Below are positions 37,228 through 52,286 of a stretch of DNA of 52,498 bases, in pieces. The stretch is taken from NCBI GenBank assembly GCA_937139405.1, contig CAKZPV010000007.1, forward strand, positions 1-52,498, written 5' to 3'. Both the position numbers and the translations under genes were made by a program. This DNA is from an uncultured Nitrospirota bacterium. GTDB lineage: Bacteria; Nitrospirota; Nitrospiria; Nitrospirales; UBA8639. How positions within the stretch are numbered: position 1 is the stretch's first letter; the number at the start of each line of letters is the position of its first letter. Under the pieces are notes generated by a model, which made no database searches, had not been told where the DNA came from, and saw only the letters and a program-made list of their open reading frames with translations.

Positions 37228-37470
37228 ATGATGGACGAATTTGAAGAAGGGAAACAAAAGCTTCTTGAGTTGATTTCGGCTCTTGATCAGACAGTCGAAG
37301 TGGTGATTCCCACCAGCCCTTCACAAAGTCTGTTTAAAATTTCTCTCTCAAAAGGGAGCCATCGAATATTTATTACGGTTCATGAAGACGACATTTTAGA
37401 TCTTCCTGAAGAGACGTCCATCCAAGAAAAAACCAAAACATTTTTACAAGACACTATAGGGGCATTATGA
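37228..37470 (+). CDS. Small protein coupled to the MBL-fold gene
   Basis: The 80-residue product is acidic and helical with a central strand (VVIPTSPSQSLFKISLSKGS). No family was recognised. Its stop overlaps the start of the next gene (ATGA), so the two are translationally coupled and probably act together. Confidence 0.65.
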   Translation: MMDEFEEGKQKLLELISALDQTVEVVIPTSPSQSLFKISLSKGSHRIFITVHEDDILDLPEETSIQEKTKTFLQDTIGAL

Positions 37471-38060
37471 AAGCCCTACTACCGAATATCTGGGAATGGT
37501 CTTGGTTTTCAGAAGAAAAACTACTCAATTTCAATGGCCATTTACTGACAGTGGGCGAGCATCGAATACTGGTTGATCCCCCTCCCATGACAGCTGGTGA
37601 TATGGCGTTCGCCCAGCAAGGAGGTCCTGTCGATTACATTCTTCTGACCAATCGAGATCATGAACGAGAAGCAGCCCAGTTGCGAGAAGCGTTTCACTGT
37701 ACCGTGATCGTTCCCGAATTGGATGGCAAGGAGATGGCTCTCACTGCTGATAAAACCTGTAGAGATGGAGAATTGCTCCCGGGTGGCATATGGGTCGTAC
37801 AACTTGCTCATCAAAAGTCTCCTGGTGAAAGCGCATTATTTTTAGAGACAGGGAAAGGCGTTCTTATTGTCGGAGATGCGATTATTGGACATCCTGAAGG
37901 TTCTCTTCGTCATCTCCCTGCAGAAAAATATGCGGATCTCGAGAAGGCTCGTGAAGGCTTGCGGCGCCTTTTAAAGTATCAATTCGACAGTCTCATCGTT
38001 GGCGATGGAGCATCCATTGTGATTGGAGCCAAATCGATCCTTGAAAAAGTGCTTGCTTAG
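37467..38060 (+). CDS. MBL-fold metallohydrolase-like protein with altered metal motif
   Basis: The 197-residue product follows the metallo-beta-lactamase layout: HLLTVGEHRILVDPPPM, then LLTNRDHEREAAQL where the canonical HxHxDH is replaced by N-R-D-H, then LFLETGKGVLIVGDAIIGHP and VGDGASIVIGA. Loss of the first two histidines suggests a changed or absent metal site. Similar divergent proteins with TNRDHxR are known to me only as uncharacterised. Overlaps the 80-residue gene upstream by four bases. Confidence 0.75.
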   Translation: MKALLPNIWEWSWFSEEKLLNFNGHLLTVGEHRILVDPPPMTAGDMAFAQQGGPVDYILLTNRDHEREAAQLREAFHCTVIVPELDGKEMALTADKTCRDGELLPGGIWVVQLAHQKSPGESALFLETGKGVLIVGDAIIGHPEGSLRHLPAEKYADLEKAREGLRRLLKYQFDSLIVGDGASIVIGAKSILEKVLA

Positions 38061-38135
38061 GCATAAAGAACCCACGTGAAATTTTCTTTATGTATTGTTC
38101 CCTGTCTTGTCAGTTGCTGGTGTGAGTGAGTTGTT

Positions 38136-38939
38136 ATGGTTTGGTCTCAATCTGCTGATCTCAATTCGTTAGGCAATCAACATTTCTCAAAGGGTTTTTA
38201 TACCGAAGCCTTTCAATGCTATTCTCAGGCTCTTGAAGTTGATCGTAAAAATGGAGATCAACGTGCATTGGCCACAACATTAGGTAATCTTGGAAACATC
38301 TGCGCCGTCAGTGGGCGTCGGGAGCAAGCCCGTCTATACTACACCGAAGTTCTCGAACTTCAAAAAATCCTCGGCGAAGATCGAGGCATTAGTACGACAC
38401 TAGCCAACTTAGGCAATCTGTCGGCAGATGCGGGTGAATGGGAACGCGCTCGAGCCTATTATTTGGAAGCGTTAGATATCATGAATCTGTTGTCGGATTA
38501 TGTAAGTAAGGCGGTCTTGCTCTCGGACTTAGGATTGGTGGCACGCGAAACGGGCCAAGAAGCAGAGGCCTTATCCTGTTATCAAGAATCTTTGGTGCTC
38601 ATGCGTCGAGTGGGTAATGACGCTGGACAAGCCGATGTGTTTCGCATGATGGCACGGTTATATTTGAGTCAACACCGCTTTGACGAAGCGCAATCGTGTA
38701 CCTTAACGAGCCTGGATGTGGCACGACGATTGAAGGATGAATTACGCATGGGTGGAGCCTGGTATATTCTTGCGAGTTGCCATGAAGCAAGAGGGGAGTG
38801 GGGAAAAGCTGTCCAATACTTACAGAAAGTTGTGCGCGTTGATGAAAAATATCAACTTCCAAAATTAGCCGAAAATACTCAACGACTACAGGCCTTATCA
38901 TTGCGCTTAGCCCAATCTGCGGAATCTTCTGATGAGTGA
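38136..38939 (+). CDS. Tetratricopeptide repeat protein
   Basis: The 267-residue product has about six TPR units of the kinesin-light-chain style: FYTEAFQCYSQALEVDRKNG, ALATTLGNLGNICAVSGRRE, ARLYYTEVLELQKILGEDRG, and ARAYYLEALDIMNLLSDYVS, with repeated LGNLG and Y-x-E-A-L. It probably binds a partner protein in the cytoplasm. Its end overlaps the next gene by eight bases. Confidence 0.85.
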   Translation: MVWSQSADLNSLGNQHFSKGFYTEAFQCYSQALEVDRKNGDQRALATTLGNLGNICAVSGRREQARLYYTEVLELQKILGEDRGISTTLANLGNLSADAGEWERARAYYLEALDIMNLLSDYVSKAVLLSDLGLVARETGQEAEALSCYQESLVLMRRVGNDAGQADVFRMMARLYLSQHRFDEAQSCTLTSLDVARRLKDELRMGGAWYILASCHEARGEWGKAVQYLQKVVRVDEKYQLPKLAENTQRLQALSLRLAQSAESSDE

Positions 38940-39369
38940 AGCGAACGAAATCTCTCCCCATTGGCAATCGGCTCGGTCTTCACTGCTGCTGGATATTTCA
39001 GGGTGGTTCGACTCTCACGAAACTGAACCCTTGACCCTTTCCTTGCCTGATGAGGATTGGTTATTGGAGATCACTCCAGATGGTCGGCTGGTTTGTGTTG
39101 CTGGATACGATCTGGATGATATGAAAAGTATGCTGTCAGATGGAACAGCTGAGGACTTAGGGAGCGACGAATTAGCAAAGCAAGTGAAATTCTTCCTTCA
39201 ACAAACGACCTCAAAATATCGTCGAAGACTGATGGCTGAAGGGTTTACTGAACGTATGGAAATGAATGATGACTTTGTGGCAGCTCATTATGAGCAAGCC
39301 ATTGACTTGAGCTCTACTCAGGAGATTCGACAAAAAATTCACACCTGCCAATCTTGGTTTCGACCGTAA
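38932..39369 (+). CDS. Hypothetical cytoplasmic protein coupled to the TPR gene
   Basis: The 145-residue product is acidic, with a WLLEITPDGRLVCVAGYD strand and a long helix QVKFFLQQTTSKYRRRLM. No signal peptide and no recognised family. The start overlaps the TPR stop (GATGAGTGA), so the two are translationally coupled and the partner of the TPR protein may be this product. Confidence 0.65.
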   Translation: MSEANEISPHWQSARSSLLLDISGWFDSHETEPLTLSLPDEDWLLEITPDGRLVCVAGYDLDDMKSMLSDGTAEDLGSDELAKQVKFFLQQTTSKYRRRLMAEGFTERMEMNDDFVAAHYEQAIDLSSTQEIRQKIHTCQSWFRP

Positions 39370-39414
39370 TTCGCTATCTGACATTTTAGGATTCTTTCAC
39401 GATTCCACTTTCTA

Positions 39415-40437
39415 ATGCCTCGCAAGCTTTCCATTAACACGTTTAAGCAATTTCGAGATGTGGTCTACAGTTTTCGCTTCTCAAGAATCATTTTTACCGC
39501 ACTCGATCTTGATCTCTTCAATGCGATGGGTGCTAGAACATGGACGATCGCTCAACTATCCAAGAGAATCCACACCAGTCAGCGAGGATTAGACATACTT
39601 TGTCGAAACTTGGCGAGTTCAGGCCTTTTAGTCAAAGTACAAGTTGGGTACGAAATCAGCCCATTTGCAAAGGCTTACCTTCAAAAGAGCAGTAAGAACT
39701 TTCGGGGTGATTATCTGACGCTTATGCAACGGCAATGGCAAGAATGGTCGCGTCTGACTGAAGTGGTGACATCTGGCATTCCCGTCGACGGTCAGGAGCC
39801 GGAAACACCTGAATATCGAAGATCTTTTTCCAGGGCCATGCACCATCGTTCTCAAGAACCGGCACAACAAGTTGCCAAGCAAATCTCAATGAAATCTTCC
39901 CGTTCATTTCTCGATTTGGGAGGTGGTCCTGGAACCTATGCGTTGGCATTTATCCAGCACAATCCAAAATTACAGGCGACGGTTATGGATCGTCCAGCTG
40001 CACTTGAAGTTGCGCGGACCCTAGCAAAAAAATCTTCCGCGGAATCGCGACTGTCGTTTCAATCAGCGAATTTCATTGATGACAATATTCCTGGAAAATA
40101 CGATATTGTCTGGTATTCGAATGTGCTCCATATTTACTCACCATCTGAAAACCTCAGAGTTTTTAAGAAAATTAAACGCGCGCTCAAGCCCGGAGGACGC
40201 CTTCTCATCCAAGATACATTCTTGCAAGATGTTCAAGGTCTTCGGCCGCTTGAGAGCAATCTTTTTGCTGTCACCATGCTGCTCTACACAGAGACTGGTA
40301 ATACCTATTCTTTACCAGCTGTCCGCTCGTGGCTTCACAAGGCTGGCCTGAGTCGAACACGTCTGATCCGCTTGAAAGAAGGAACAGGCGATTGGGAAGG
40401 GCAAATCCTTGAGGCACGTCTGCCAGTGAGTTCCTAA
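39415..40437 (+). CDS. O-methyltransferase-like (acetylserotonin/hydroxyneurosporene type)
   Basis: The 340-residue product has the two-domain layout of this family: a winged-helix dimerisation domain (residues 1-130; FTALDLDLFNAMG, ARTWTIAQLSKRIHTSQRGL) and a SAM domain beginning SFLDLGGGPGTYALAF (about 164-179), with WYSNVLHIYSPSE and ALKPGGRLLIQDTFL. It would methylate a small-molecule hydroxyl; the substrate is unknown. The gene follows the TPR cluster with a 45-base gap. Confidence 0.88.
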   Translation: MPRKLSINTFKQFRDVVYSFRFSRIIFTALDLDLFNAMGARTWTIAQLSKRIHTSQRGLDILCRNLASSGLLVKVQVGYEISPFAKAYLQKSSKNFRGDYLTLMQRQWQEWSRLTEVVTSGIPVDGQEPETPEYRRSFSRAMHHRSQEPAQQVAKQISMKSSRSFLDLGGGPGTYALAFIQHNPKLQATVMDRPAALEVARTLAKKSSAESRLSFQSANFIDDNIPGKYDIVWYSNVLHIYSPSENLRVFKKIKRALKPGGRLLIQDTFLQDVQGLRPLESNLFAVTMLLYTETGNTYSLPAVRSWLHKAGLSRTRLIRLKEGTGDWEGQILEARLPVSS

Positions 40438-40552: not shown

Positions 40553-41068
40553 TTATGATTCAGCCCCGGTCTGTGCGGTAGATTCTTCGAGATAAGGTCT
40601 TAAATGTTCGTAAGCATTTCGGAGATTTTGTGTGTCATGTTCCCATGCTTCTAAAAAAGCGGAAAATCGACTGCGGTCGTATAACCCTGGCATCCATGCC
40701 ATACCGAAAAGATTTCCAGTTGTTGACCAATAAAAACGGGCGACCTGATTGGCCTTATTCAGAGTATTGAGCACTTCGTATCGCGCTAAGCCACTCGCCT
40801 CCTTCTTTTTCCCTGGAAATCCTGTCTGTAGGCGAATTCCTCCTTGAAAATACGTGATGTAGAGATGAATCTTCGCATGGTGTTGAGCTCGAATACCTTT
40901 CTCCACCAGATCACATTGATACCCCAAAAACTCTAAATGCTCTATGAGCGGGTCCGTGCGGTTAGCCTCCTTGGCTTGGCCAATATGTGGCAAAATACAC
41001 ATGCTTAGCGCGAGCACGAAAATACAGCAGTAGAAATATATTCTCTGGCGGTTTCTTAGATTCATCAT
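40553..41068 (-). CDS. Exported protein, YbjN-like fold possible
   Basis: The 171-residue product has a signal peptide (YFYCCIFVLALSMCILPHIG, cleavage near GQA). The mature part reads LEFLGYQCDLVEKGIRAQHH, then LQTGFPGKKKEASGLARYEV and LNKANQVARFYW, a layout reminiscent of the YbjN/type-III-chaperone-like fold. The assignment is weak. It is convergent with the O-methyltransferase gene. Confidence 0.55.
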   Translation of the reverse strand: MMNLRNRQRIYFYCCIFVLALSMCILPHIGQAKEANRTDPLIEHLEFLGYQCDLVEKGIRAQHHAKIHLYITYFQGGIRLQTGFPGKKKEASGLARYEVLNTLNKANQVARFYWSTTGNLFGMAWMPGLYDRSRFSAFLEAWEHDTQNLRNAYEHLRPYLEESTAQTGAES

Positions 41069-41327: not shown

Positions 41328-43508
41328 TCATGATAATGGGGGGGGAGACGGTACAGGCTCTTTTGCTGTCAAAGATGAAGGTGAAACCTGAGAGCCTAAG
41401 CTTGGCAAATTGACAAAAAAGGTGGTGCCACGTCCCTTGAGACTTTGAACTTCAATTCTTCCTCTATGCTCTTGAATGATTTGATGTGCAATAGCTAAAC
41501 CCAACCCCGTCCCTTCATGTTCTTCGCTTAAATGTTTTGTCGTGAAAAATGGATCAAAAATATGTTCAATATCTTCAGGCGCAATGCCTGATCCTGCATC
41601 TTGAATTTCAACTTGGACCCATTCAGATTTTTCATGAGGTCGAAGATGATGAGTGCGAACCGTTAACACTCCGCCATCCGGCAACATGGCTTCAACGGCA
41701 TTAAACAAAAAATTCAGAATGACTTGTTTGAGTTGTTGCCGGTCAGCAAAGATTTTGGGTAAATCCCGCATCAGATTGGTTTCAATCACAATCAGTTCAT
41801 GAGAAGGACGAACTCGTAATGTATACAAACAGGATTCCACAATATCGTTCAGATCTTCTTCTCGTAAGAAAGGCTCCATGGGTTTGGCATAATCCAAGAT
41901 CTCTCGAGTTAATCGTTCGATGCGAAACACATCTTCTTTGACCACTTTGCTAAACCGAGCCAGAAATTGCTCATCATCTTTTCGTTCAGGGGCTAAATCC
42001 ACAAAAGCTTTAATCGATGTGAGAGGATTTCTGATTTCGTGAGCCAACCCTCCTGCCATTGTTTCGAGTGAACGAAGCCGATCCGTTCGGCGCACCAACG
42101 ATTGAGAACGTTTTAATTCTTCATAGAGCAGGGCATTGTCCAATGCAATAGACGCTTCTTGCGCCAAAGTGGTCAATAATTCTAGCTCTTGAGATGTATA
42201 ACCTCCTCCGCTGTTTATGACCTGTCCAAACACACAAAACCCTAATAGCCGATTCTTATTGACTAATGGTAAACAGACTTTCGTGCCAATAGTGGCGAGC
42301 TGAGTGATAACGGCTTGAGCTTGTGGATCTGGCAAAGAATCTTTCAATTCATCAAGAACAAAACACATCGTACCTTGCCGCCACCGATCTTCCAATGAAG
42401 AAACATGGCCGAGCTGCAAGCTAGGAAAATCACTCAACGGTTTTCCGAAGCTAGAAATAGGGTTGTAATCTGGGCTTCCTGTCTTTCGTAAATAGATGGT
42501 TCCCCATTCCAGACCTAAACTTGGACAAATGGATTGAACAATCGTGGACGTCAAATCTTTTAATTCTAAAATGGACACCAAAGATTTTGAAAAATTTAGC
42601 ACCGTCTTATACTGATCATAACGATCTTTAAACAGGGCTTTCGTGATCAATGTGGTGGCCTGTGTCTTCAGCGAAGAAGCGCCAAAGACCAGTAAAAGCA
42701 AGACGAAGAGTTCGACAAGAGAATAGCCAATATTGATTGATCCGAAATACCATTGTTGGCCGAGTAATAAGGTTGGATATGCTGGAAATGCGACTAAGAG
42801 GACTAGTAGGCTTCCTGTCACTCCTCGTTCCAGGGCGGTCCCTAAATCCATGAGTCGATACCGTAACAGCGTATAGGCGACGACAGAGGTGTAGACGGTG
42901 AGGAGAATAACGCCATTGGGTTGAATATTGATGCCATACCATAGGGGGAAAGTGGTTAGGCCTCCGCCATAAGCCATAATGGAACCAATGGCTAACAGAT
43001 AAAAACGGTATCGTTCTGCCCCACTCTTGCTTCGAGCGCCTTGCAACAATAACCACGTCCCATACAGTGAACAGAGACCAAACCAGGGGAGATAGAAATG
43101 AAAGGCTGGTCCTGGTTTCGGCCAAAAACGAAATCCAGCAACCGAATGTACATCAGCCACAAAGTATGGTGTGAAATTAAACAGAAAAAAGATCAGGCCA
43201 ATTCCTGCTAAAAACCACAGCAACCGTTGTTTGCCTTGAATCTTGTCTAATAAGGTCAAGACGTGAAAGAGATAAGCAACAGGTAAGAAGATCGCGCCGA
43301 CCATGAGTAGGCGAACATAAAATAAGGCTGAAGCGTGAGAAGTTGAAATCTGCCAGGCCCAGTAGCCATACCCCCAGGTTGCGGCAGTGAGAGCATAGAG
43401 CCCATAGGCTTGATGTTTAGGGTTAGTCGGATTTCTTGAGTAAACAATAATTCCGGAAATGGTGGCGGCTAGCCCATTGAGAAGTCCGCTGAAAGCGTGA
43501 AAAGTCAC
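41328..43508 (-). CDS. Orphan membrane sensor histidine kinase (7TM-GAF-HisKA-HATPase)
   Basis: The 726-residue product has seven or eight transmembrane helices in residues 1-290 (HisKN_7TM-like), a GAF domain at about 310-460, the dimerisation helix with LAHEIRNPLTSI (H490 phosphoacceptor), and a HATPase_c domain (NFLFNAVEAM, DAGSGIAPEDIEHIFDPFFT, GTGLGLAIAHQIIQEHRG). It would sense a membrane or small-molecule signal and phosphorylate a response regulator. No response regulator gene is visible in the window. The architecture also resembles PEP-CTERM-associated PrsK kinases. Confidence 0.92.
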   Translation of the reverse strand: MTFHAFSGLLNGLAATISGIIVYSRNPTNPKHQAYGLYALTAATWGYGYWAWQISTSHASALFYVRLLMVGAIFLPVAYLFHVLTLLDKIQGKQRLLWFLAGIGLIFFLFNFTPYFVADVHSVAGFRFWPKPGPAFHFYLPWFGLCSLYGTWLLLQGARSKSGAERYRFYLLAIGSIMAYGGGLTTFPLWYGINIQPNGVILLTVYTSVVAYTLLRYRLMDLGTALERGVTGSLLVLLVAFPAYPTLLLGQQWYFGSINIGYSLVELFVLLLLVFGASSLKTQATTLITKALFKDRYDQYKTVLNFSKSLVSILELKDLTSTIVQSICPSLGLEWGTIYLRKTGSPDYNPISSFGKPLSDFPSLQLGHVSSLEDRWRQGTMCFVLDELKDSLPDPQAQAVITQLATIGTKVCLPLVNKNRLLGFCVFGQVINSGGGYTSQELELLTTLAQEASIALDNALLYEELKRSQSLVRRTDRLRSLETMAGGLAHEIRNPLTSIKAFVDLAPERKDDEQFLARFSKVVKEDVFRIERLTREILDYAKPMEPFLREEDLNDIVESCLYTLRVRPSHELIVIETNLMRDLPKIFADRQQLKQVILNFLFNAVEAMLPDGGVLTVRTHHLRPHEKSEWVQVEIQDAGSGIAPEDIEHIFDPFFTTKHLSEEHEGTGLGLAIAHQIIQEHRGRIEVQSLKGRGTTFFVNLPSLGSQVSPSSLTAKEPVPSPPPLS

Positions 43509-43702: not shown

Positions 43703-46024
43703 TTAAGCGGCTTTCATCAAAGCATTGCCCAGGTTGTTTTGATGTTGCAGGAGAGCGTGAGGTTTTTGAGTTGAAAGCCTGGGGATCTGTGTGAAGGATT
43801 CAGGTTTTTCTAAAACAATCAAATAGGCTTGGTTGGAAAACGTAGGATACACCCCCGCATACACACAATTCAGTGCATCGAGAGCCTTCTCCCATTCTGG
43901 CTGATCAAAAAAGCAAAATTGTCCCTCTTTTTCGGCTTGTCGAATTTTCCCATAATTATTCAGAAGTTCTCTAGCTTCAGCTTTCTGCTCTCTTGCCCCT
44001 ACTTGGCTGACCAAACTTTGATAGATACCAGAAAAATCTCCATTAGGCTTAAGGTTAGAGAGTACCATGCGCCCACCGGGAGCGAGAACTCGAAACAATT
44101 CTTGTAAGGCGGCTTGAGGGTTTGCAATATATCCAAGCACTAAATTTGAGACGATCCGATCAAATTGATTATCAGCAAAAGGCAATGGATATTGTAGATC
44201 AACTTGCGACCATGACATTTGTAGAGGGGAGAGCAAAGCAGTTCGGGATTTTTGTTGAGCGTGATAAGCTTGAGTCATCTGAGATTGAGCTCTTCCTAGT
44301 GCTTGATGAATGACATCGATACCGACATAACGAATGGGGGAATCCGAAATCTGTTGCGATTGATTCGCTCGCTTCTGTAAAGATTGTAAGAAGAACAATC
44401 CAACGTTCCCATTTCCACAACCCGCGTCTAAAAACTGTTGGCCAGGAGTAATAGGACCTAAAGCATGAAAGACATGATCTAACAGTTGCACATAGTCCTG
44501 GCAGGATCCGACGGTTTGGAAATTCCCCAAATAATCACTCCAGAATGCTTGTCCGACTTCAGTAGGGAGCTGCTGTTTCAGCATCATTTTCTCTTGGCGT
44601 TTTTGCCTGCCTAGATCTGCGCGATTAGGATCCTGAATGCTACTATTTTTGAGATGGACATCTAAGTGTTCATGACAATGCTGAATGATTTGCTGATATG
44701 CTTTTCGCGCGATTTTGGGATTTTCCTGAAGACGGTGCAATGCTTCGGGAACATCTAGCCACTTGGACAGGTGTGAATCTATCGACTGTTTAAACTTCTC
44801 TAATGCGTGTTTATCTATCCAGGCATCTTTCCCTGCAGAAATATACATGATTGGTGTTTGTAAGGATTGAACATCTTGAAGTGTGGTTTGTAATGTAGAA
44901 AAATTATTTGATAGGGCATCACGTAAAAATTGTTGCCCGACATTAAAACCAATAATATTCGCAGAATCTTGAATCATTCCATTGAGATAGTTCGCAAAGA
45001 CATCATCTTGGTGAACGGTGGCGACTGATTGCTGAACATCAACAATACCAACGAGCGATACCAAAAGCGAAAGAGAGGGCTTTTCAGCTTCCGCTTTCAA
45101 TGCTACGCGAGAAGCTAAACTGGATGCCACACCGATGATTGGGCAACCAGGCCATTGTTGATGTGCAAACTGCGTCATCGCTTGAAAGTCCTGTTTCATG
45201 GAAGAAAGGGTAATATTAAAATGTTTTCCCTGACTTTCTCCAACATGATTAGTATGGTCATAGCGGATCACATGAAAGCCATTGTTCGCAAAATAATAGG
45301 CTAACGTCAGGTAGTCTCGTTTTGTTTCTCCATATCCAGGCGCCAGAACAACGACCGGCAATGTGGAAAGATCTGTGTCGAGTGGATAATCGTGGTAGGC
45401 CATAATCGAATGACTAGAATCATTCTGTATAGACATCTTAGAGCTTTCTATGTGTTGAGCTTTTTGATATGCGCATTTACTTGGATGACTTAAGAGTTTA
45501 TTCGTGGAAGCAACAAGCGGGGCCTCATTAGTTTGTGGATCTATTTCATATGAATCCTCCTCTTTTCCTTCTGTCAATTGACTGATAACAAAACTTCCAA
45601 GCTGGAAAGAATAATTTTGAGCATCATGGCTTGTCTTATGCGCTCCATGTAAACCAGGCAATTCAACAAGAAGAATCGTTGTTCCTTCCCAGGTCGTCGA
45701 GCCTCGTTGAATGTGACTCTGTTGAATAATCCCAGTCTGAGCTTGCATGAGGGAGTCTGACGTTTTTCCAAAACACCGAAACTGCAGTTCTTGTCCAACT
45801 TGAACTGGGGGCATTCCTTGAATGCGTATTTCTAAAGATCTGGTACTCAAAAATTCTATCTGACCATCCCAATTCCCACCCAGACAATGAAGATACAAGG
45901 GGACTGCATGATATTGCTGGATGGTGTTGTTCTCATCTCTCGCAGGCCACGAAGGTTTTTTAGGCATGAATTGCTCAACTCGTTGGGATCGTGATTTCGA
46001 AGAGCCGGTAACCATTCCATTCAT
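43703..46024 (-). CDS. Fusion: PilZ-like + LuxD-like acyl hydrolase + SAM methyltransferase
   Basis: The 773-residue product has a good ribosome binding site (AAGGGGG, 8 bases away). Residues 35-125 are a beta-barrel of possible PilZ type. Residues 215-450 resemble LuxD, the myristoyl-ACP thioesterase of luminous bacteria: VLAPGYGETKRDYLTLAYYF, NGFHVIRYDHTNHVGESQG, GVASSLASRVALKAEAEK, SAGKDAWID and HRLQENP. The likely triad is S302-D400-H430, spaced 98 and 30 residues, as in LuxD (S114-D211-H241, 97 and 30). Residues 490-745 are a class I methyltransferase: FLDAGCGNGNVGLFF, YVGIDVIHQALG, and LAPGGRMVLSNLKPNGD. I see no luciferase genes. A role in making or methylating a fatty-acid-derived product is inference. 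Confidence 0.85.
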   Translation of the reverse strand: MNGMVTGSSKSRSQRVEQFMPKKPSWPARDENNTIQQYHAVPLYLHCLGGNWDGQIEFLSTRSLEIRIQGMPPVQVGQELQFRCFGKTSDSLMQAQTGIIQQSHIQRGSTTWEGTTILLVELPGLHGAHKTSHDAQNYSFQLGSFVISQLTEGKEEDSYEIDPQTNEAPLVASTNKLLSHPSKCAYQKAQHIESSKMSIQNDSSHSIMAYHDYPLDTDLSTLPVVVLAPGYGETKRDYLTLAYYFANNGFHVIRYDHTNHVGESQGKHFNITLSSMKQDFQAMTQFAHQQWPGCPIIGVASSLASRVALKAEAEKPSLSLLVSLVGIVDVQQSVATVHQDDVFANYLNGMIQDSANIIGFNVGQQFLRDALSNNFSTLQTTLQDVQSLQTPIMYISAGKDAWIDKHALEKFKQSIDSHLSKWLDVPEALHRLQENPKIARKAYQQIIQHCHEHLDVHLKNSSIQDPNRADLGRQKRQEKMMLKQQLPTEVGQAFWSDYLGNFQTVGSCQDYVQLLDHVFHALGPITPGQQFLDAGCGNGNVGLFFLQSLQKRANQSQQISDSPIRYVGIDVIHQALGRAQSQMTQAYHAQQKSRTALLSPLQMSWSQVDLQYPLPFADNQFDRIVSNLVLGYIANPQAALQELFRVLAPGGRMVLSNLKPNGDFSGIYQSLVSQVGAREQKAEARELLNNYGKIRQAEKEGQFCFFDQPEWEKALDALNCVYAGVYPTFSNQAYLIVLEKPESFTQIPRLSTQKPHALLQHQNNLGNALMKAA

Positions 46025-46501: not shown

Positions 46502-48592
46502 ATGAAACACGGCACCATCCGCAATGTTGTCCTGGCCTCCTATCCTGGAGCCGGAAAAACCAGTGTCACCGAAGCCATCGCTTTTTCGACCGGAATCATT
46601 CCCTCAATGGGTAGCGTCCTACAGGGAAATACCATTGGTGATTTTGAACCAGAAGAAGTTCATCGTCATCATTCCCTGAGCATGGCGCTGATTCAGTTAG
46701 AATGGCAGGGGACACGGATAAATATACTAGACACGCCAGGAATGATGGACTATGGAGTGGAAGTCCAATCCGCGTTGCGGGCGGCTGATGGTGTGATTCT
46801 TGTCGTGGGAGCTGGGACAGGGCTTCGCTCAGAAATTGAACGCGTATGGGAATATATTCAAGATCATGAATTGCCGTGTTTGCTCTTTATTAATGAATTG
46901 GATAAAGACGGCACTGATTTTAATGAGATCTTAGGAGAATGTGAAAAGACATTAGAGCTAAAAGGCGTACCGCTCACTATCCCAGCTATGCAAGATGATC
47001 AATTAATCGGAGTCTTTGATCTATTGTCACGCCAACTGGTGACGTCCAATGTTCAATTTGCAAAAATAACGCAAGACGACATTCCAACAGAACACAAAAC
47101 TTTAACCACAGAACATCGTCGGCGCCTCACGGAATTGGTGGCCGAAACAAATGATCAACTCGTCGAAAAATATCTTACCGACGGAGAGTTATCAGACGAA
47201 GATCTTATTGATGGCTTAATGATAGGAGCGCTAGAGCGGAAAATTGTGCCCGTACTCTGTGGCTCGGCAACTAGTCACGTTGGGATGGCAAGTCTTATGG
47301 AAGCCATCAAGCGATTTCTCCCTTCCCCTGAAGATCGTGCTAGCCTTCACCCTTTGGCAGGAATACAGCCGCAAACACACGAAGTATGTCAACGAGAGCC
47401 GGATGCGCAGGCTCCATTTTCAGGGTTAGCGTTCAAAACGACAATCGATCCCTTTATGGGGCGCCTCACCTATGTCCGAATGTTATCTGGGACGTTACAC
47501 GCCGATTCTGGTTTTTTGAATGCTTCTCGACAGACCAAAGAAAAGGGTGGGCACCTCTTTTTTTCGATTGGGAAGAAACATCAACAAGTCGATCACGTCT
47601 GTGCCGGAGATATTGTCGCCATTGCCAAGCTCAAAGATACACAAACAGGGGATACCATTTGTGATGACAAGCATCCTATCGTGTATCCAGGTCTCAATAT
47701 TATGAAACCTGTCATGTCTTATGCTTTAGAAGTCAAAAGTAGTAAGGAAATCGACAAGGTCAGCTTAGGGTTACATAAATTGGTTGAAGAAGATCCATCT
47801 TTAGAGTTTCTGAGGAATGACGAAACCAAAGAAATGCTTTTGAGTGGAGTCGGCCAGGTGCATATCGATGCCACATTGGAAAAATTGCGACGGAAATATG
47901 GAGTTGACGTCAATTTACATATGCCCAAAGTGCCATATAAAGAAACCATCCATAGGATGGCACAAGCACAGGGAAAATATAAAAAACAAACAGGTGGGCA
48001 TGGACAATTTGGAGATTGTTGGCTGAAAATTGAGCCGTCACCTCGCGGCAAAGGGTTTGAATTTCACAATAAAATCGTAGGTGGAGCGATCCCTCGAAAC
48101 TTTATACCTGCGGTAGAAAAAGGTGCGTTAGAAGCCATGCAGCATGGCATTATAGCCGGTTTTCCTGTTATCGACATTCAAGTCACAGTCTATGATGGCT
48201 CCCATCATCCGGTGGACTCCTCAGAAATGGCGTTCAAGGTGGCGGCATCCATAGGGTTGAAAAAAGCCATGGAATCAGCACAAGCTGGATTGTTGGAGCC
48301 GGTGATGGTGGTAGAGGTGACGGTACCGGATGATCTAGTCGGAACCGTTATTGGCGATCTCAATTCGCGACGTGGGCGTATTCAAGGTATGGAGGTCAAA
48401 GGCCATAATGAAATTCTAAAGGCACATGTGCCTTTAGCAGAAATGCTCAGCTATGCGCCGACACTGACGTCGCTCACAGCTGGAAAAGGGAGCTATCGTA
48501 TGGAATTCTTTGGCTATGAGGACGTGCCTCAAGAAATGATTAATCGCATTGTGGAAGAATACAAAAAAGAAGCCGTGGCATCGGCTTCATGA
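46502..48592 (+). CDS. Elongation factor G paralogue (EF-G-like GTPase)
   Basis: The 696-residue product has the EF-G domain order. G1 is SYPGAGKTS (13-21) instead of the usual HIDAGKTT, G3 is LDTPG, and G4 is NELD (canonical NKMD). Domain II follows (FKTTIDPFMGRLTYVRMLSG), then domains III, IV (GGHGQFGDCWLKIEP, PVDSSEMAFKVAA) and V (GDLNSRRGRIQGME). A ribosome binding site GAGGAGG precedes the ATG. It is not the main EF-G but a divergent paralogue of the FusA2 kind. Possible roles are ribosome recycling, translation under stress, or ribosome protection. Confidence 0.88.
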   Translation: MKHGTIRNVVLASYPGAGKTSVTEAIAFSTGIIPSMGSVLQGNTIGDFEPEEVHRHHSLSMALIQLEWQGTRINILDTPGMMDYGVEVQSALRAADGVILVVGAGTGLRSEIERVWEYIQDHELPCLLFINELDKDGTDFNEILGECEKTLELKGVPLTIPAMQDDQLIGVFDLLSRQLVTSNVQFAKITQDDIPTEHKTLTTEHRRRLTELVAETNDQLVEKYLTDGELSDEDLIDGLMIGALERKIVPVLCGSATSHVGMASLMEAIKRFLPSPEDRASLHPLAGIQPQTHEVCQREPDAQAPFSGLAFKTTIDPFMGRLTYVRMLSGTLHADSGFLNASRQTKEKGGHLFFSIGKKHQQVDHVCAGDIVAIAKLKDTQTGDTICDDKHPIVYPGLNIMKPVMSYALEVKSSKEIDKVSLGLHKLVEEDPSLEFLRNDETKEMLLSGVGQVHIDATLEKLRRKYGVDVNLHMPKVPYKETIHRMAQAQGKYKKQTGGHGQFGDCWLKIEPSPRGKGFEFHNKIVGGAIPRNFIPAVEKGALEAMQHGIIAGFPVIDIQVTVYDGSHHPVDSSEMAFKVAASIGLKKAMESAQAGLLEPVMVVEVTVPDDLVGTVIGDLNSRRGRIQGMEVKGHNEILKAHVPLAEMLSYAPTLTSLTAGKGSYRMEFFGYEDVPQEMINRIVEEYKKEAVASAS

Positions 48593-49275: not shown

Positions 49276-50106
49276 ATGATAGCAGAATACATTGAAGCTT
49301 TACTGACGCCTGCGCCTAAATGGGCGAAGCACATGGAGCTTCTCAATGAAGCGATCGCAATATCGGCACGGGCGAAAAGATGCTGTGAGGCTTGGGCACC
49401 GCATCAGCAACACACGAAAGAAGCTATAATCGATGCGATGGAAGCTTGTGACCAACATCGAATAGTTTTGGTCGTTGGTTCCGGATCATGTCTGGATATC
49501 CCCCTTGCGGAGTTAGCCAACAAATTCAAACAAGTCATACTGATTGATGTCGTTCATCCTTTGAAATCAAAACGACATGGCTGGAATCATGTGGTTCAGA
49601 TCACACAGGATATTACGGGACAATTGGAAACCCTTTATAACCATCCGGAAACATTACCGGAAATGTATGCGCCAAATATTTATCATGATGTTCCTGAGAT
49701 AGATCTTGTCCTATCGGTGAATCTTGCTAGTCAACTACCCATTATGCCTCTAAAGTATCTGGCAGACAAAATGTCTCATGATGAAAAAGAATTAAACAGG
49801 TTTGCCAAAAACTTAATAAGGGCTCATTTTACATGGTTATCCGGCTTTACATGTACTACCGCTCTTATCTGTGACCAAGCTTGGGAAAGGCTGGATGCAA
49901 CCGGAAAACTCATTGAGTTGGATGATCCGCTGTATGGTCTCATATCACAAAAAACCACCAGGGAGTGGTATTGGGACGTGGCACCAACACATGAGACGGG
50001 GACTGATTTTTCGCACCGAAACCATGTGGGTTATTGGGCAAATTTTCTATTTGTAGCTTCTGATGATCTATCTGCCAATCCAAACTGTATCTATGCGCAG
50101 TCGTAG
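49276..50106 (+). CDS. Orphan protein with a Rossmann-like motif
   Basis: The 276-residue product is unrecognised. Residues 63-85 (VLVVGSGSCLDIPLAELANK) look like a nucleotide- or SAM-binding turn, with IDVVHP 15 residues later, so a divergent methyltransferase-type fold is possible. The C-terminal third is aromatic (REWYWDVAPTHETGTDF). No signal peptide. The gene follows a repeat-like region and precedes a small secreted protein, in an accessory section of the window. Confidence 0.65.
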   Translation: MIAEYIEALLTPAPKWAKHMELLNEAIAISARAKRCCEAWAPHQQHTKEAIIDAMEACDQHRIVLVVGSGSCLDIPLAELANKFKQVILIDVVHPLKSKRHGWNHVVQITQDITGQLETLYNHPETLPEMYAPNIYHDVPEIDLVLSVNLASQLPIMPLKYLADKMSHDEKELNRFAKNLIRAHFTWLSGFTCTTALICDQAWERLDATGKLIELDDPLYGLISQKTTREWYWDVAPTHETGTDFSHRNHVGYWANFLFVASDDLSANPNCIYAQS

Positions 50107-51131: not shown

Positions 51132-52286
51132 TTATTTATCTGCCTTGATCTGATCCATAATTTCATGTGTTCTTTTCAATATTCTCTTGTCTTCTTCAGG
51201 GTCCCTGGGCTCTGGTTTTCTTTCAGCATCCTTACGCCAATTTGGCTCAAGGTCGCCATATACTTGATCATATAAACGTGAAACCAAAAAATCACCTTCT
51301 CTGGGGGGCCACGCTGCATAATTCCTAGTTCCTGTTTTTTTCACTTCCTCAGGTAAACTCTCGTAATACTCCGTGAGTGCAGCCATGTCTTTTTTTAATG
51401 CAGGCTGCTCAATAAACCGCTGATCTTCTCTTAGAAGAAGCGGGGCCATCTGTTTATGGAGCTTATCATTTGATGTGAAAAACGTTGTAAAAGGCAGGTA
51501 ATAAAAATACGTGAAGTCTATTTTATGAGAGGCTCTTTGGTCGGAGATTAGACGGCGAGTTATCAGAAAATTAAAAAACAAATCAACTTTCAACACATAA
51601 GCAGCATATGGGGCAAATTCAGGCAATGGTCGCCGGCCGAAATGCTGCCATCTAGCTAAAATACGTGCATGGTGATTTGAAGGCACACCGAGATACTGTA
51701 GAGCCATAAGAAGGATTTTGTATGCATCATTCCCCAGAGCTTTGTCTATAAAAGCTAAAATTTCTTCTGGCGTTTTTAGGTTCTTGATATGACTTTCTGC
51801 CCACTTCATGGATTGGCTGATTGCTGAAAGATCCAATTCTTCAAGGGTATCCTGCCACTCAGCTGCCATTTCATGCTCCAAGGCATTAAAATCGCCCTGC
51901 TGCCATAGGCGTAATGCTTTTGACTCTGGCATGTCCTCAAAGAACACCCCATAGCTGCCATCACTATGTTGCACTCTTTTGCCGCCGCCCAAATATGGTT
52001 TTCCATTCATCTCCACTTGCTCGTGAACCAAGTCCCCAATGACCAGTTCTTTATAAAACATGTTAGGAGTGATGGCATAGTTAGGGATCTTGGCTGCTAA
52101 AATAGCCACCTCTTCCTCAGGCTTTTTCCCTCTCTTTGACTCCTTCTTGAGATTACCAAGCACCTCCATAAAAAGAGTTGGTGTAAGAACAACGTGAAAG
52201 TGATGATGAAGCCAATCAGCTTCCTTTGCTGTAAGGCTTTGCAGGGTCGACTTATCGTAAATTAAAGTGGGGCCATGGCTCATCAT
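51132..52286 (-). CDS. PIN-like domain nuclease with large helical insert
   Basis: The 384-residue product has the four acidic positions of a PIN domain in order: D11 in LIYDKSTL, E41 in TPTLFMEVLGNL, D257 in HKIDFTYFYYLPF, and D274 in FTSNDKLHK. About 200 helical residues (45-250) are inserted between the second and third, unlike the 130-residue toxins of VapC type. PIN enzymes cleave RNA with Mg2+. There is no adjacent antitoxin, and the gene is bounded by direct repeats. A role in defence or stress is a guess. The C-terminal tail is charged (RKPEPRDPEEDKRILKRTHE). Confidence 0.65.
   Translation of the reverse strand: MMSHGPTLIYDKSTLQSLTAKEADWLHHHFHVVLTPTLFMEVLGNLKKESKRGKKPEEEVAILAAKIPNYAITPNMFYKELVIGDLVHEQVEMNGKPYLGGGKRVQHSDGSYGVFFEDMPESKALRLWQQGDFNALEHEMAAEWQDTLEELDLSAISQSMKWAESHIKNLKTPEEILAFIDKALGNDAYKILLMALQYLGVPSNHHARILARWQHFGRRPLPEFAPYAAYVLKVDLFFNFLITRRLISDQRASHKIDFTYFYYLPFTTFFTSNDKLHKQMAPLLLREDQRFIEQPALKKDMAALTEYYESLPEEVKKTGTRNYAAWPPREGDFLVSRLYDQVYGDLEPNWRKDAERKPEPRDPEEDKRILKRTHEIMDQIKADK

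Follow-up and report, generated by a model that had tools for sequence, protein, structure and literature searches.

The window, a 52,498-nucleotide stretch of DNA from an uncultured Nitrospirota bacterium, carries on its minus strand an open reading frame of 773 residues, at the place where the earlier note had put one, in which a domain of the LuxD family is joined to a class I SAM methyltransferase (Table 1). The plus-strand frame over the same interval is riddled with stops. An AlphaFold model of the fusion protein had a mean pLDDT of 75, with values of about 90 in the hydrolase core and a probably flexible linker of low confidence between the N-terminal barrel and the hydrolase domain. 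The gene is followed by that of a sensor histidine kinase with a HisKA_7TM (7TM) input module. This neighbour lies outside the interval on which the earlier note had commented and was missed there, and it proved to be the decisive context for the fusion.

Table 1. Features of the fusion gene and of the adjacent sensor kinase gene, with positions in the window.
Feature	Position	Strand	Size or remark
LuxD–methyltransferase fusion gene	43703..46024	(-)	773 aa
Putative PilZ-derived barrel, N-terminal, aa 41-121	45662..45904	(-)	six strands; without c-di-GMP motifs
Linker, probably flexible, aa 125-186	45467..45652	(-)	low confidence, pLDDT <50
LuxD-family alpha/beta hydrolase domain, aa 192-457	44654..45451	(-)	
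Ser302 codon	45119..45121	(-)	nucleophile position
Asp400 codon	44825..44827	(-)	
His430 codon	44735..44737	(-)	
Helical connector between LuxD and methyltransferase domains, aa 458-525	44450..44653	(-)	conserved
Class I SAM methyltransferase domain, aa 526-691	43952..44449	(-)	
SAM motif I, DAGCGNG, aa 533-539	44408..44428	(-)	
Partner sensor histidine kinase gene	41328..43508	(-)	726 aa; 194 nt downstream of fusion
HisKA_7TM (PF16927) input module of kinase, aa 15-222	42843..43466	(-)	
GAF domain of kinase, aa 316-456	42141..42563	(-)	
HisKA and HATPase_c of kinase, aa 481-702	41403..42068	(-)	

The other surroundings of the pair are less constant. An EF-G-like factor (46502-48592) is encoded divergently to the fusion gene and is conserved as its neighbour in the window's family only. 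The O-methyltransferase, TPR and metallo-hydrolase genes at 37467-40437 were rejected as parts of a pathway, as they are syntenic within the family only and were absent beside the fusion–kinase pair in the other families that we looked at. Three open reading frames of the window, at 49276-50106 (276 aa), 51132-52286 (384 aa) and 40553-41068 (171 aa), had no Pfam match.

Consistent with the LuxD-like middle domain proposed in the earlier note, residues 202-449 matched PF02273 (Acyl_transf_2) at 104.6 bits (E = 7.7e-30; Pfam cut-off, 20.3), whereas generic models scored lower on this domain (Hydrolase_4, 56.2 bits; Abhydrolase_1, 21.7 bits). The nearest PDB chain by sequence was 1tht (E = 1.4e-20), which is V. 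harveyi LuxD, a myristoyl-ACP thioesterase; a monoglyceride lipase came second (1.6e-5). 1tht also ranked first in a Foldseek search with the AlphaFold model, and it topped the VIA-align list with a Z score of 28.2 and an rmsd of 3.0 over 277 residues (model residues 192-486), ahead of runners-up with Z scores of up to 26.4 over about 240-257 residues. The rankings by Pfam, by PDB sequence search and by fold rule out a generic alpha/beta hydrolase identity. The LuxD equivalog was the top NCBIfam match as well, but its 107.4 bits did not reach the cut-off of 420, and a score so far under the cut-off makes the domain a relative of LuxD rather than LuxD itself.

In the phmmer alignment to 1tht, S302, D400 and H430 fell on the nucleophile, acid and base regions of LuxD, and we confirmed the LuxD-style spacing of 98 and 30 residues that had been claimed for this triad. 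Among the relatives, counted non-redundantly, 53 have the serine, and every one of them has the other two triad residues as well. Because the match to 1tht runs full-length, the triad residues are likely to lie together in one site. The earlier note had reported no lux genes around the fusion, and a search of the genome found no LuxE and no convincing match for LuxC, the single LuxC hit (24.9 bits; cut-off, 21) lying within a 1006-aa frame. With LuxE absent and LuxC unconvincing, we rejected the Lux aldehyde-forming pathway as an explanation. Our literature search found nothing on LuxD in Nitrospira or on LuxD joined to a methyltransferase.

The C-terminal domain was a class I SAM methyltransferase, as had been noted earlier (residues 526-691; Methyltransf_31, 59.6 bits), and its nearest folds were RebM, Coq5 and CouO. 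As these include C-methyltransferases, C-methylation by the fusion is possible on the basis of the model; the fold search was uninformative for naming the methyl acceptor, O- and C-methylation being indistinguishable by fold. At the other end of the protein, Pfam gave no PilZ match, and the AlphaFold model placed six strands in residues 41-121. Profile–profile comparison (hhalign) of the N-terminus of the window's genus with the PilZ domains of relatives gave an E value of 2.6e-5 and a probability of 75%, and PF07238 domains occupy the same place in related families at up to 70 bits. The region is therefore a putative PilZ-derived barrel, in agreement with the PilZ-like barrel of the earlier note. 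The c-di-GMP control suggested along with it did not hold: a motif search of residues 1-191 found neither RxxxR nor [DN]xSxxG, whereas deep relatives keep both motifs, about 26-33 residues apart and often twice. Since these motifs are missing, the barrel has probably lost the ability to bind c-di-GMP, a function that we discarded for the window protein, and control by c-di-GMP is unlikely in the window's species.

Nor is the fusion an oddity of one genome. It was present in 39 of 60 relatives. Of 147 genomes from the order, 89 had a PF02273 match, compared with none of 14 control genomes; the fusion is a conserved family that spans the Nitrospirales. A contig scan placed its relatives almost only in Nitrospirota, that is, in Nitrospirales MAGs and many Nitrospira, with N. 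moscoviensis and Ca. N. defluvii among the carriers; the matches beyond this phylum were one Omnitrophota and bacterium Cli_8. A survey of 285 genomes, with carriers in 2/285, added a second Omnitrophota. What recurs is two parts of the three-part architecture first described. The joining of LuxD to the methyltransferase is constant across the Nitrospirales and the two Omnitrophota, whereas the N-terminus is variable and consists of a degenerate PilZ, PilZ–PilZ, REC–PAS–PilZ–PilZ, SRPBCC or PilZ–SRPBCC arrangement, or of no extra domain at all. The fusions of L103 and L104 carry SRPBCC lipid-binding domains on their N-terminal side.

The pairing with the sensor kinase is conserved as well. A kinase gene lies downstream of the fusion on the same strand in the window's family and in the families f3 and f2, among which the remaining neighbours differ. 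At 80 further loci the same order was found with few exceptions; the gap between the two genes is often -4 to 48 nt. In L104 the partner has kept the 7TM module and GGDEF has replaced the kinase, which indicates that what stays constant in the pairing is the sensing module. Relatives without the fusion also lack the cognate kinase. Three such genomes (G001, G013 and G031) gave 7TM-kinase matches at paralogue level only, and synteny confirmed that the G031 kinase (L195) is a paralogue. Two partner kinases of about 1000 aa (L044:10842-13850 and L046:1404-4421) showed tandem matches to the 7TM query, that is, a duplicated 7TM input.

In deep Nitrospirota branches the operon goes on with an NtrC-type (sigma-54) regulator and a REC-HD-GYP protein. 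L094 and L096 combine an intact triad, canonical PilZ, a 7TM kinase and both NtrC and HD-GYP response regulators, a gene set that is ancestral-looking. No response regulator adjoins the pair in the window's family, and a search of the window's own genome for the cognate regulator returned 24 NtrC-like candidates, none of which stands out.

The two Omnitrophota loci place the fusion among genes of fatty acid synthesis. The L103 genes for the fusion, for a pair of 7TM kinases and for a REC-HD-GYP protein are flanked by plsX-fabH-fabD on one side and by fabG-fabF on the other. The L200 operon encodes the LuxD–methyltransferase, a 7TM kinase, a REC protein, two KAS enzymes, ACP, FabZ and a PlsC-type acyltransferase, together with a fusion of SRPBCC to an acyl-ACP reductase (6jzz, E = 1.4e-29). 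These neighbours tie the LuxD domain to acyl-ACP. The reductase, encoded at L200:7792-9363, is of the cyanobacterial long-chain type. We did not find an enzyme of this type in 59 of the 60 relatives, the remaining one giving a weak match, and we rejected it as a general partner of the fusion.

We then compared the state of the triad with that of the partner, counting loci non-redundantly (duplicates between collections were removed) and scoring the partner only where it was visible. Among 53 sequences with an intact S-D-H triad, a 7TM module was found at every one of the 49 loci with a visible partner. Among 54 sequences with aspartate at the nucleophile position, the corresponding number was 0 of 51. 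L166, which at first looked like an exception, is a single open frame that holds both the fusion and the 7TM kinase. The remainder of the triad was also lost, wholly or partly, in 53 of the 54 nucleophile-Asp sequences; the other, L100, keeps the acid and the base. On the tree, triad and 7TM module were lost together in two independent events, one in a large Nitrospira clade and one in L100. The association is suggestive of a coupling between an intact triad and a 7TM partner; with two independent events only, a sign test on the co-loss was not significant, and we do not regard concerted loss as statistically proven. A group within f2 (g16) has asparagine in place of the serine and still has the 7TM kinase (L045 and L099, which are the same locus). 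At this locus a PilZ–ketosynthase III fusion (L045:7158-8756) is encoded between the Asn-bearing LuxD–methyltransferase gene and the 7TM kinase gene.

The degenerate copies do not look like decaying genes. Asp302 was present in 53 of 53 sequences of the degenerate Nitrospira clade, and the RYDHxxHxGxSxG region was kept; this fixation and retention suggest selection for something besides serine hydrolysis, and the wide retention of these copies together with a kinase points to a second, non-catalytic use of the protein. From its sequences, the clade looks like a neofunctionalised pseudoenzyme with a fixed aspartate. L100 (L100:1-2424), in which serine has changed to aspartate, Asp and His remain and the kinase is already without the 7TM module, is an apparent intermediate. 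Asp-Asp-His sets are known from dehalogenases and epoxide hydrolases. Members of the degenerate clade of about 1400 aa (L036-L043 and L106-L153, Nitrospira) have kept canonical twin PilZ domains. In N. moscoviensis (L134:5424-10535), the degenerate LuxD–methyltransferase continues in frame into the regulator's sigma-54 activator domain, and the kinase and receiver are missing in a deletion-like manner. N. defluvii has an intact copy of the fusion as well as a degenerate one.

Judged by its domains, the fusion is an enzyme that needs acyl-ACP and SAM, and the 7TM module of its membrane-embedded partner occurs only beside copies that seem active or close to it; the best explanation in our view is a synthase–receptor pair. 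We propose that the fusion and the 7TM kinase form a lipid-signal circuit, in which a predicted acyl-ACP-consuming synthase of a methylated signal is encoded next to its receptor, and we judge the chances for and against this proposal to be evenly balanced. The methylated acyl signal put forward in the earlier note, if not its c-di-GMP control in the window protein, is plausible, is still the leading idea and gains support from the gene context. As its family and triad suggest, the LuxD-type domain would draw an acyl chain off acyl-ACP through Ser302 and release or transfer it. The fused methyltransferase would methylate the released acyl group with SAM, most simply at the carboxylate; the fatty acid methyl ester that would result is the simplest guess at the product, although a doubtful one, and C-methylation or another O-methylation could take place in the same step. 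The hydrophobic product would enter the membrane, where the neighbouring kinase may detect it with its 7TM module, as the genomic coupling suggests. The kinase would then signal to a response regulator; in deeper relatives this role would fall to the sigma-54 NtrC-type protein and the REC-HD-GYP c-di-GMP phosphodiesterase encoded directly after it, and in those relatives the N-terminal PilZ domains, sometimes with REC or PAS, may gate the synthase.

The degenerate copies invite a different explanation, in which the fusion acts in the cytoplasm as a sensor or adaptor: it would use its LuxD and methyltransferase folds as modules for ligand binding, take up acyl-ACP or a fatty acyl group and control the neighbouring kinase through contact. 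Roughly one half of the family is without the triad (S to D, with acid and base gone) and has an eroded SAM motif, these copies retain the adjoining kinase and the REC, PAS and PilZ domains, and the fixed Asp302 resembles the outcome of selection rather than decay. We nevertheless consider such a role for the family unlikely, because the triad and the SAM motif are invariant in every lineage with the serine and the 7TM kinase, because the 7TM module is gone exactly where catalysis appears to be lost and because the intact form in Omnitrophota is accompanied by genes of acyl-ACP biosynthesis. Those same genes could instead mean that the fusion makes a methylated product, either a structural lipid or a secondary metabolite, whose production the two-component pair merely regulates according to the state of the membrane. 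The L200 operon, with its KAS, ACP, FabZ, acyl-ACP reductase and PlsC, does resemble a dedicated product pathway, and the PilZ–KASIII fusion beside L045 could be read in the same way. The Nitrospirales pairs, however, are as a rule without such biosynthetic genes, the near absence of the L200-type reductase from the 60 relatives fits poorly, and the sole constant companion of the fusion is the 7TM partner, so this too seems improbable to us. A BioC/BioH-like pair in one chain, in which the methyltransferase would mask a carboxyl group until the hydrolase stripped the methyl ester, would make use of both domains. BioH is also an alpha/beta hydrolase, and BioC models give weak matches to the methyltransferase (35.5 bits; cut-off, 185), but the clear preference of the hydrolase domain for LuxD, the lack of any biotin genes seen around the fusion and the constant sensor partner, which this arrangement leaves unexplained, make it very improbable indeed.

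The proposed synthase–receptor circuit resembles several known systems in part. With LuxD (PF02273; 1tht) the fusion shares the domain family, the fold and the triad with its spacing, and LuxD is its closest solved structure both by sequence and by fold. It differs in having only about 20% identity to LuxD, below the equivalog cut-off, in its methyltransferase, putative PilZ-derived barrel and tie to a sensor kinase, and in belonging to a genome without LuxE or a convincing LuxC. In the Phc quorum-sensing system of Ralstonia, the PhcB methyltransferase produces methyl 3-hydroxymyristate, which is sensed by the PhcS kinase (PMC8578825). The likeness to Phc lies in a SAM methyltransferase, here with a fatty acid methyl ester as its proposed product, that is encoded beside a sensor kinase; unlike Phc, the fusion adds a LuxD acyl-release domain, and its kinase is of the HisKA_7TM–GAF type. 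Deep relatives of the fusion also recall the Rpf/DSF system (RpfF, RpfC and RpfG) in that a predicted acyl-ACP-consuming enzyme, a sensor kinase and a REC-HD-GYP protein adjoin, but a LuxD–methyltransferase stands in place of RpfF, which is a crotonase-fold enzyme, and an NtrC-type regulator is added. By analogy, our best reading is that the fusion–kinase pair would work like Phc or Rpf, and we claim membership in neither. The partner kinase also matches the model of PrsK (TIGR02916), from the PrsK/PrsR system of XrtA/PEP-CTERM, at 140 bits, below the cut-off of 300; we know of no LuxD–methyltransferase in that system.

Both in natural settings and in wastewater, Nitrospira-type bacteria rank among the major nitrite oxidisers. 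A broader version of our proposal, towards which we are slightly more sceptical than not, is that they have an undescribed type of cell–cell signalling, in which the LuxD–methyltransferase makes a methylated acyl signal and the 7TM module senses it and drives either a histidine kinase or a diguanylate cyclase. On this view, the synthase of many Nitrospira would later have become a non-catalytic regulator, with the change from serine to aspartate fixed, and the kinase would have lost its receptor. If true, these nitrite oxidisers would have lipid signalling of a new class, and LuxD would have a function beyond bioluminescence. It would also mean that the ligand of a HisKA_7TM receptor can be found through the neighbouring synthase, and that what 7TM kinases sense becomes directly testable with just two genes placed in a laboratory strain.

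A second 7TM kinase in the window's own genome (G000:C34:90357-91736) is likewise encoded near a SAM methyltransferase gene. This cluster (L189:3963-9737, contig 34) comprises the paralogous 7TM kinase, which has a weak HisKA match, a PAS–HK–REC hybrid and a SAM methyltransferase of 321 aa. The arrangement was syntenic in 6 of the 7 genomes of the family that we looked at, and the cluster is a possible second circuit.
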